A stretch of 46,072 nucleotides of DNA from an uncultured Desulfocapsa sp. GTDB taxonomy: Bacteria; Desulfobacterota; Desulfobulbia; Desulfobulbales; Desulfocapsaceae. Positions 13,926-26,650 of the stretch are shown here, in pieces (the first letter of the stretch is position 1; every line of letters starts with the position of its first letter). A program made the position numbers and the translations under genes. The stretch lies in NCBI GenBank assembly GCA_947311435.1, contig CAMZKT010000002.1, positions 1-46,072 on the forward strand, read 5' to 3'. The notes below the pieces were generated by a model that worked only from the letters and a program-made list of their open reading frames with translations, was not told where the DNA came from and did not search any database.

Positions 13926-13973
13926 GTCCAAAAACTTAATTTTTCACTTGTCCAAAAACTTAATTTTTCACTT
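13926..13973. repeat. Perfect 24-bp tandem duplication spanning a stop codon
   Basis: Two identical, directly abutting 24-bp units (13926-13949 and 13950-13973) begin GTCCAAAAAC and end in TTTTTCACTT. The minus-strand rhodanese gene stops inside the second unit (TAA at 13962-13960), so the last few codons and the stop are repeated downstream. It looks like a recent slippage or recombination duplication. Confidence 0.9.
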
Positions 13974-14493
13974 TTGCAACATCGTATCCGGCACCTTTCC
14001 ATGCAAATATTCCACCGGAATAGCGGTACACGTTTTTGTACCCCAGTTTTTTGGCCCACAAGGCACCATTGTGACTACGGGTACATTTGACAAAACCGCA
14101 GTATATAATGATTTCCTTCTCTTTGTCACTTCCCAGCAAAGCCCTGAAGTCAGCTTCTGATTTGCCATCTGTTTCTGCACTGTTCCATTCTTTCATTGGT
14201 TCTATCGGAAACAGAAACTGAACAGCACCGGGTATATGTGCTTTTTTGTATGATGCTTTGTATGGCATTGTGTCCACAATGAGAATGTCCTGGCCGGATT
14301 CCAGTAGCTTTTTTAATTCTGAGGTTGTTATGAGGTCATATCCTCCTTCAAGTACTTCTCTTGTGAGTTTTACTGCGGATGCCTCCACCTCGACTTCCTT
14401 TTTAAATTTTGAGTTACCAAAGCCATAAGAGTTGGCACTGGTAGTTAGTATCAGTAACAGCAGGGCAGCACTACATTTTTTCCACATTCTCAT
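13960..14493 (-). CDS. Exported rhodanese-like sulfurtransferase
   Basis: The 177-residue protein has a signal peptide (residues 1-22) and a single rhodanese domain (about 50-170). The domain includes ILIVDTM and the end block YKNVYRYSGGIFAWKGAGY. The active-site region reads YCGFVKCTRSHNGA with C132, C137 and R139. Compared with the usual C-x4-R-S loop, the arginine-serine pair is displaced two residues from C132, so the loop is longer and has a second cysteine. It may move sulfane sulfur in the periplasm or be redox active. The MauE/DoxX-like membrane gene lies 17 bp upstream and is probably co-transcribed. Confidence 0.85.
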   Translation of the reverse strand: MRMWKKCSAALLLLILTTSANSYGFGNSKFKKEVEVEASAVKLTREVLEGGYDLITTSELKKLLESGQDILIVDTMPYKASYKKAHIPGAVQFLFPIEPMKEWNSAETDGKSEADFRALLGSDKEKEIIIYCGFVKCTRSHNGALWAKKLGYKNVYRYSGGIFAWKGAGYDVAKVKN

Positions 14494-14510: not shown

Positions 14511-14948
14511 TTAAAGTTGTTGAACGGTTTTTCTAGACACCCAAAACAGGAAAAACAGCGGAATCAAAAAGACAATGTCTCTATAGAGTGCCGCTCTTAG
14601 TCCCGAAAACGCCTCATGTTCTGGATCTCCGGTACTGAAACATCCGCAATCAATATCAAGACCAATCAGGATTCCATAGGAAAGGACGAAGATAAAGAGA
14701 GCGTATAAAAATAATGTGCTCATTAAGCTCCATCGTCTCCCCATGACCAAACCGATGGCTGTAATAATTTCAAACAGAGGGAGTATGAGAGCGAAAGAAT
14801 TGACGAGTTGGTCGGGCAACAGACCATAGGCGCCAACGACCCGTGAAAAATTGTCAAGGTTAAATAATTTTGGAATTCCCCCATAGAGGAAGATGCCTGC
14901 AAGAAAGAATCTGCTTACAACTACCCAGGTATCAATGGTATTCTTCAT
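14511..14948 (-). CDS. MauE/DoxX-family redox-associated membrane protein
   Basis: The 145-residue protein has four predicted transmembrane helices and a DCGCF motif (C101 and C103) between the third and fourth. This layout is typical of the MauE/DoxX superfamily, which supports disulfide formation or electron transfer to quinone. It starts the two-gene unit with the exported rhodanese, suggesting a periplasmic sulfur or thiol redox pair. Its start codon lies only 23 bp from a palindromic mobile element (14972-15121), so that element may affect its promoter. Confidence 0.82.
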   Translation of the reverse strand: MKNTIDTWVVVSRFFLAGIFLYGGIPKLFNLDNFSRVVGAYGLLPDQLVNSFALILPLFEIITAIGLVMGRRWSLMSTLFLYALFIFVLSYGILIGLDIDCGCFSTGDPEHEAFSGLRAALYRDIVFLIPLFFLFWVSRKTVQQL

Positions 14949-14971
14949 GTTTTTCTTGACTAATCAATTTT

Positions 14972-15121
14972 GACAGCGTCGTAAAAACTCTTCATCTTCT
15001 TCGTTGCTGTATTTTTTGTTTGATTACGACGTATCTTAGTACGTCGAAATCAAACAAAAAATACGCCCCTCGTATCTGAAGTTTTTTACTTACCCATCTC
15101 TCAATTGACCTTTTTACGAGT
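14972..15121. mobile_element. MITE-like palindromic element, copy 1
   Basis: This 150-bp element has a long internal hairpin with arms at 15009-15033 and 15040-15064, matching at 24 of 25 positions with a 6-nt loop. Short outer inverted repeats TCGTAAAAA (14979-14987) and TTTTTACGA (15111-15119) flank it. The 8-bp direct repeat TCAATTTT borders it on both sides (14964-14971 and 15122-15129), which looks like a target-site duplication. It is about 92% identical, without gaps, to copy 2 at 26425-26576. It encodes no protein, so it would need a transposase supplied elsewhere. Confidence 0.82.
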
Positions 15122-15129
15122 TCAATTTT

Positions 15130-15535
15130 ACGTGTGCTTCATTTATATTTGAGCACCTAAAATACATTTCATGGAGCTATATTGCAAATAGGAAAATATG
15201 ATACTTGTGGACGGCGGTATGGTATTTTTGTGGGACAGGGAGAGATTGTACCGGCATTCAGGAACTGAGTTGCGGAAAGTGTGAAGAAAAGAAAGCTTGT
15301 TCCCTGAACCCCGCTGGGAAAAGAAAATGGGGGGATATATACTTGTTCATATGGTGAATAAACGAGTTCAGCGAAGAATACATAAAGAATTGAAATAAGG
15401 TAGGAAACTTTTTTAATTTGTTGAAGTGCAGAATTTCGGTTAAAGAGTATCATCAAGAAACATTGCAGTTTGTTGTCTCGGAATGTACCGGGAAATTCAA
15501 CGTGAGTATGTCATAAGCAAAGGAGTTATGAAGTT
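15130..15535. other. Intergenic region with possible cysteine-rich remnant
   Basis: About 400 bp separate the mobile element from the CxxCH protein gene. Two short plus-strand frames look protein-like. One (15182-15268) encodes CGRRYGIFVGQGEIVPAF. The other (15205-15357), in a different frame, has five cysteines including CGKC and a further AC. Together they could be a frameshifted remnant of a small metal-binding protein. A minus-strand frame at 15169-15456 is not supported by any recognisable feature. Confidence 0.35.
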
Positions 15536-26303: not shown

Positions 26304-26424
26304 TTTCATAGTATACGGGTAATGACGCTTAATCTACTTATTCACTTACAAATGGGTAAGCAAGTATACCATAAGAAATGCGTATTTTCGTTAAGTTTAC
26401 AAGAAACAGTATTATTTAAAGATG
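26304..26424. other. Intergenic segment after ylxR
   Basis: Together with the mobile element and the 26577-26650 segment this makes a gap of 347 bp in an otherwise compact operon. Outside the element I see only AT-rich sequence and one half of its flanking direct repeat (26416-26424). The ribosome-binding site of infB lies at the far end. Confidence 0.6.
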
Positions 26425-26576
26425 ATGGCGTCGTAAAAACTCTTCACCTGCTTCGTTGCTGTATTTTTTCTTTAATTACGACGTACACTGGTACGCCGAA
26501 ATCAAACAAAAAATACGCGCCTCGCATCTGAAGCTTTTTACTTACCCATCTCTCAATTGACCTTTTTACGAGTTTA
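26425..26576. mobile_element. MITE-like palindromic element, copy 2
   Basis: This is the second copy of the element at 14972-15121, aligning without gaps over 146 bp with about 12 differences. Its internal hairpin (arms 26461-26486 and 26491-26516) matches at 22 of 26 positions and has an ACTG loop. It is bordered by a perfect 9-bp direct repeat, TTAAAGATG, at 26416-26424 and 26577-26585, unlike the repeat at copy 1. It lies inside the nusA operon between ylxR and infB, where the hairpin could pause RNA polymerase or stabilise mRNA ends. Confidence 0.82.
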
Positions 26577-26650
26577 TTAAAGATGGCGTTTTTTTTATGA
26601 TACTATCATAGTGTGTTTCTTTACGAAACTGAGAAAGACAGGAGCAGGGA

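Follow-up and report, generated by a model that had tools for sequence, protein, structure and literature searches.

MITEs are usually seen as IS remnants in which the ends alone matter. Among described systems, the MITEs of ISMac2, an IS1182-family element of Methanosarcina acetivorans, are 160 and 169 bp long with IR of 26 and 25 and DR of 4 and 0 (PMC3852290). Like the MITE analyzed here they have only their ends in common with the IS, and they differ in their archaeal host, with 14 and 7 copies, and in that the accessible part of the source reports neither a conserved fold of the interior nor a third end (PMC3852290). The bcr1 element of the Bacillus cereus group is similar in being interspersed, ∼150–170 bp long and present in many copies, with mobile features and a conserved predicted structure, but it differs in its TTTAT motif and in the site-specific-recombination-like route proposed for it, and the sections of the two accounts that we could consult place it in one species group only and name no IS partner (PMC6542083, PMC2267715). 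Chunjie of Geobacter uraniireducens, compared by its description in an excerpt, is likewise a MITE with TIRs and DRs, both conserved in 37 additional intergenic copies, but is larger at 178–235 bp (PMC10969869). IS1272 of Staphylococcus, also of the IS1182 family, shares a broad transposase family and a structure said to be relevant to transposition, but according to the available portion of that report it is proposed to replace stem-loop targets, whereas the MITE family described here makes 4–5 bp duplications (PMC5678879). REP palindromes, given as 20–40 bp in the text at hand (PMC3733652), were ruled out as the identity of a 157-bp element with duplications. No description of this MITE family was found in the literature searched, which for the most part lay outside subscription journals, and neither was a widely kept, covarying core with a three-end layout found described there.

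The window, i.e., the whole stretch of 46,072 nucleotides analyzed here from an uncultured Desulfocapsa sp., holds two copies of the element. Copy 1 occupies positions 14,971–15,124 on the plus strand, with boundaries set by alignment to other copies, and is 154 bp long against a family consensus of 157 bp; this boundary was placed by hand and differs by one base from that of our script, which gave 155 bp and a 3-bp repeat. The left end, recognized by sequence and end pattern, is TGACAGCGTCGTAAAAA (14,971–14,987, plus strand; consensus TGATGGCGTCGTAAAAA), and the outer right end, taken from aligned copies, is TTTTTACGAGTTCA (15,111–15,124, minus strand; consensus TTTTTACGAGTTTATCA), which is 3 bp short in this copy (GAGTTCA versus GAGTTTATCA). 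Between them lie the two arms of a central hairpin (15,009–15,033 and 15,040–15,064, plus strand; 25 nt each, 96% complementary) and an inner end-like site, TTTTTACTTACCCATC (15,083–15,098, minus strand), against which the left end folds in most subfamilies. The copy folds better than any of 200 shuffles, with z scores of −7.45 as RNA and −7.74 as DNA. The original prediction, of a hairpin, an inverted pair TCGTAAAAA (14,979–14,987) and TTTTTACGA (15,111–15,119), and a direct repeat TCAATTTT on both flanks (14,964–14,971 and 15,122–15,129), can be located in every part, and two of its parts needed adjustment. The outer inverted repeats are present and extend further than was noted, to TGATnnnnTCGTAAAAA on both sides. 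A target-site duplication exists as well, but it measures 4–5 bp and not 8 bp, since TCAATTTT overlaps the terminal bases of the element. At copy 1 it is ATTT (14,967–14,970 and 15,125–15,128, read against the family ends), or 6 bp with the shared A and T included; the target is itself similar to the ends of the element, and this gives rise to the 8-bp repeat. An 8-bp duplication was also rejected for the family, as no exact 6–8 bp repeat occurs in any of 90 copies with the revised boundaries.

Copy 2, which had been noted as near-identical with a different flanking repeat, lies at 26,423–26,579 (plus strand, 157 bp) in the nusA–infB gap; it is 92% identical to copy 1 and is flanked by AAGA. 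Copy 1 stands 22 bp (23 bp by the earlier count) upstream of the start of a MauE-family gene (14,511–14,948, minus strand; PF07291, E = 6.3e-25), which is followed by a rhodanese-domain gene (13,960–14,493, minus strand). A promoter effect of copy 1 on MauE, which had been raised as a possibility, is unsupported, and a scan of 14,880–15,260 found no sigma-70-like site, with 1.2 expected by chance. The MauE–rhodanese pair is kept in three relatives, and the sequence compared upstream of their MauE genes contains no end pair, in keeping with an insertion that relatives do not share at the orthologous site. A search for the empty site of copy 1 across the genus returned unlinked gene matches only. 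In another genus two genomes (G298 and G434) have the element within one intergenic gap, each at a different point, and a third (G339) has none, in surroundings too rearranged for a clean target, and no clean single-copy empty site was found.

The expectation of a transposed, non-autonomous element is borne out by copy number, duplications, an IS of this genome whose ends match, and the absence of an end pair upstream of MauE in the three relatives; the conditions named earlier as able to refute it were decided in its favor to the extent that they could be applied. The element occurs at 40 places in its own genome (2.45 Mb in 134 contigs; 52 match rows minus 12 hairpin self-matches) at 77–100% identity, and matches occur in 20 of the 36 genomes searched, the own genome included; the genus accounts for 18 of these, out of its 20 genomes. 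Aligned copies give the ends TGATGGCGTCGTAAAAA and, reversed, TGATAAACTCGTAAAAA, and the end pattern has 87 matches versus 9 for a reversed control. From 119 MITE matches, 99 with both ends, we obtained 90 full-length copies with 20-bp flanks, and an exact 4-bp repeat flanks 46 of these and a 5-bp repeat 13, one or the other being present in 58 and absent in 32, while shuffled flank pairings give means of only 0.97 and 0.57, respectively. In the own genome 20 of 31 such copies have duplications. The base that follows the 4-bp repeat is T in all 46 cases and the base that precedes it is A in 41, so that insertion targets have the form A-NNNN-T. In three copies with a last base other than A, the same base is found on both sides in two and not in the third; in three other copies the left side has G where the right side has A. 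MITEs also lie side by side with other element ends (L192, L201, L204, and L206), and such insertion of elements beside each other is expected if the target, which is TCA-NNNN-TGA-like, looks like a pair of ends that meet. A second MITE subfamily of the same genome (L118, L125, L131, and the end of L006) has another hairpin stem and right end, with ACCTTTTTACGAGGTCATCA in some copies.

The feature is a MITE, and one of an ordinary, IS1182-like kind. It is 154–157 bp long, where MITEs are smaller than 500 bp, and has no protein gene (no ORF of ≥90 aa), inverted ends, a duplication, dispersed copies and a partner with the same ends. That partner, a transposase gene with matching ends as the original prediction had asked for, is present in the same genome, with relatives elsewhere: contig C97 contains a 1.9-kb IS that is bounded by TGATGGTCTCGTAAAAA and TTTTTACGAGTCCATCA and encodes a DDE transposase of 578 aa. 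Further IS ends are found at six contig ends (C9, C49, C105, C108, C58, and C83), and the IS is therefore probably multi-copy and collapsed in the draft. The transposase matches NF033551 (IS1182; E = 1.8e-46) at 159 bits, below the equivalog cut-off of 270, and hence is filed as IS1182-like only; it carries DDE_Tnp_1/DDE_Tnp_1_6 and DUF772 domains, which we take to mark the IS1182 family. Named relatives with such IS ends include Desulfobulbus alkaliphilus and Desulfatitalea alkaliphila, and MITE copies are present in three of the seven named genomes that carry a relative of the C97 IS. An exact 4–6 bp repeat flanks 13 of 21 IS with both ends and flanks (shuffled mean 1.1), these 21 being drawn from 31 loci tried of 37, with seven partial loci left out; the C97 copy itself has no duplication. 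The MITE and the IS have only their ends in common. A close transposase (at 1e-30) is encoded in only 4 of the 36 genomes, the own genome included, and in most relatives with many MITE copies the draft shows no close transposase gene, although drafts lose repeats. On contig C97 (L116, 1–2,038) the IS adjoins a MITE copy that is without its outer end, and the left and right flanks of this IS mismatch, as if an insertion had been combined with a deletion or with recombination between ends.

The matching ends and similar duplications of the IS1182-like IS make trans-mobilization the best explanation. We consider it quite probable that the MITE is mobilized in trans by an IS1182-like transposase, with the fold serving the element while it is active and not the host. 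The transposase of the IS would cut the MITE at the left and outer right ends and insert it in trans. The fold may serve the active element by forming a cruciform or single-strand hairpin, either to promote assembly of the transposase or to let a source copy survive, with no service to the host afterwards.

What sets the fold apart is how it varies. The interior folds into a single long, imperfect hairpin, with the left end set against the inner end-like site; the hairpin arms are rewritten between subfamilies yet are still complementary. Among 20 hand-picked subfamily representatives, halves pair with their own partners at a mean of −33.2 kcal/mol versus −19.0 when swapped, and the own partner is preferred in 12 of the 20. 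Two plain MAFFT alignments of hand-picked subfamily representatives, not random samples (A1 with 13 sequences and A2 with 20), have two-sided changes at 14 of 39 and 16 of 23 pairs, respectively. In A1, 94.5% of cells are paired versus 84.0 when shuffled, with 51 two-sided cells versus 17.2, and in A2 these values are 90.7% versus 72.8 and 82 versus 23.5. In both alignments paired cells and covariation score lie above all 500 shuffles and every slid register, while the number of further pair types in A2 is not above chance (202 of 500 shuffles).

Such covariation is what would be expected if the core were a structured or regulatory RNA gene riding on transposon ends, the fold being kept for a host RNA function. 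The helices covary, the frame sequences CTGC-GCGTTGC and GCGCCTTGCAT are kept across the phylum, and the consulted part of the review that covers Chunjie describes MITE transcripts that become small RNAs (PMC10969869), but other properties make an RNA gene unlikely. On this strand G-U cells do not outnumber A-C cells (8 versus 14 in A1 and 4 versus 14 in A2, after removal of one near-constant U-G column), the element lies in both orientations to its neighbors (29 opposite and 22 same, of 79), and 10 loci gave no Rfam match at the gathering score, the nine matches in the window being all sub-threshold. Resident copies within the genomes G000 and G010 have no clear compensatory change. Own versus swapped arms pair at 0.849 and 0.843 in G000, with 250 of 2,000 shuffles as high, and at 0.922 and 0.918 in G010 (323 of 2,000), and in G000 there are 91 one-sided breaks, 37 one-sided changes that keep the pair, 7 two-sided changes that keep it and 7 that break it. 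A small own-pairing excess remains among close copies in G016 (12 of 2,000 shuffles as high). This within-genome test left out divergent rows (3 of 31 in G000 and 2 of 19 in G016), and with these included the shuffles as high number 9 of 500 in G000 and none of 500 in G016. The arms covary when subfamilies are compared, whereas in two genomes those of the resident copies decay with no compensation detected, and this difference is our main reason for assigning the function to the active element and not to the host. We infer that what keeps the fold is the spread of the element itself and not a benefit to the host. Covariation by itself does not prove a host RNA, and this serves as a warning for similar cases. 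Active subfamilies compared with decayed copies form a large natural data set with which selection acting on mobility could be told apart from that imposed by the host.

A second reading, to which we give a minor though real share of the probability, is that the hairpin is incidental, its palindromic arms rewriting themselves, by template switching or by repair from one arm to the other, while the fold is under no selection. It would account for whole arms changing together between subfamilies and for copy 1 being better paired than the family consensus, two A.C mismatches of which are pairs there. It also fits the existence of hairpin-less copies with intact duplications, several of which break in T-runs. 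Five copies of 77–87 bp are without the central hairpin (L024, L043, L060, L062, and L200), three with an exact 4-bp repeat; several break at the T-runs that flank the hairpin, and three of the 87-bp ones do so at similar T-runs, so deletion after insertion is possible. The short hairpin-less form may also move by itself, and hairpin-less copies with intact duplications speak against a strict need for the fold. Self-rewriting arms, however, leave unexplained why the arms of most resident copies remain uncorrected, why unpaired frame sequences are kept throughout the phylum and why the third end has a 28-bp spacing.

The genomic context bears on one further reading, in which transposition spread a bidirectional transcription terminator or mRNA-stabilizing palindrome that the host then retained. 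The hairpin is strong and the copies are mostly intergenic, 72 of 79 classifiable ones having no ORF overlap of >40 bp by crude ORF picking (92 copies, 13 cut by locus edges). Yet convergent gene pairs, the expected location of terminators, hold only 7 of the 79, versus 21 at divergent and 51 at co-directional pairs (raw counts with no background rate), and by this context a terminator role was ruled out. A scan found no terminator-like site, and the stems in G000 change faster than the ends (0.128 versus 0.057–0.070 per site), which leaves a host-kept palindrome of this type highly improbable.

The unpaired interior frame sequences CTGC-GCGTTGC and GCGCCTTGCAT are kept across the phylum, and a model of the core matches 122 of 395 genomes at E ≤ 1e-5 (short calibration; E-values rough). 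In 78 of the 245 sampled genera an interior with covarying helices is retained, and its distribution here is wider than that of the ends; whether a bacterial MITE has to have a folded body in order to spread thereby becomes open to test. The end pair at 105–135 bp spacing is found in 84 of the 395 genomes, versus 9 genomes with 1–3 each for the reversed control, and an exact 4–5 bp repeat flanks 18 of 32 rows of such end pairs with flanks (L260 and L263 are each counted twice). Other elements (L267–L272, L277, L278, and L281) combine these ends, and in most cases a 4-bp duplication, with quite different interiors that carry hairpins of the GTCATTCC...GGAATCCAG type, which may resemble neisserial dRS3. 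Several core-bearing genomes in turn have differing ends (AACGACTTTGTAAAAAG in G071 and CAGGCTGCTGAAAAAG in G236; G236-like genomes have ends CAGGCTGCTGAAAAA), and intermediate-looking ends exist between the end types. The ends may have been exchanged or may have drifted apart step by step.

The three-end layout is likewise retained at a distance. The distance from the inner to the outer end is 28 bp in 68 of 86 measured copies (of 92) of the family found in the window, and in the distant genome G236, where all three end-like sites differ in sequence, the third is 27–29 bp beyond the second in 17 of 17 paired cases. A YTAR-like target rule in G236 rests on 17 old copies, two with TTAG on both sides as judged by eye. 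One 30-base core pattern gave no match in viral contigs, and plasmids gave no match either. A tentative proposal, to which we give slightly less than an even chance, is that the folded core represents an ancient mobile entity found throughout the phylum, older than its ends and acquiring them or co-evolving with them. If it is true, the function of the core would be needed or tolerated by every host transposase or host cell, the element would be a structured entity in its own right and not a mere deletion remnant of one IS, and fold, frame sequences and three-end layout would persist while the ends and apparently the target rule change (A-N4-T versus YTAR-like in G236). Twenty stretches of G236 (L341–L360) contain no clear IS with its ends and no recognized transposase, and the rows listed as IS candidates there turned out to be ordinary genes between MITEs. 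This genome, a single contig, carries 108 forward end-like sites CAGGCTGCT[CG]AAAAA with at most one mismatch.
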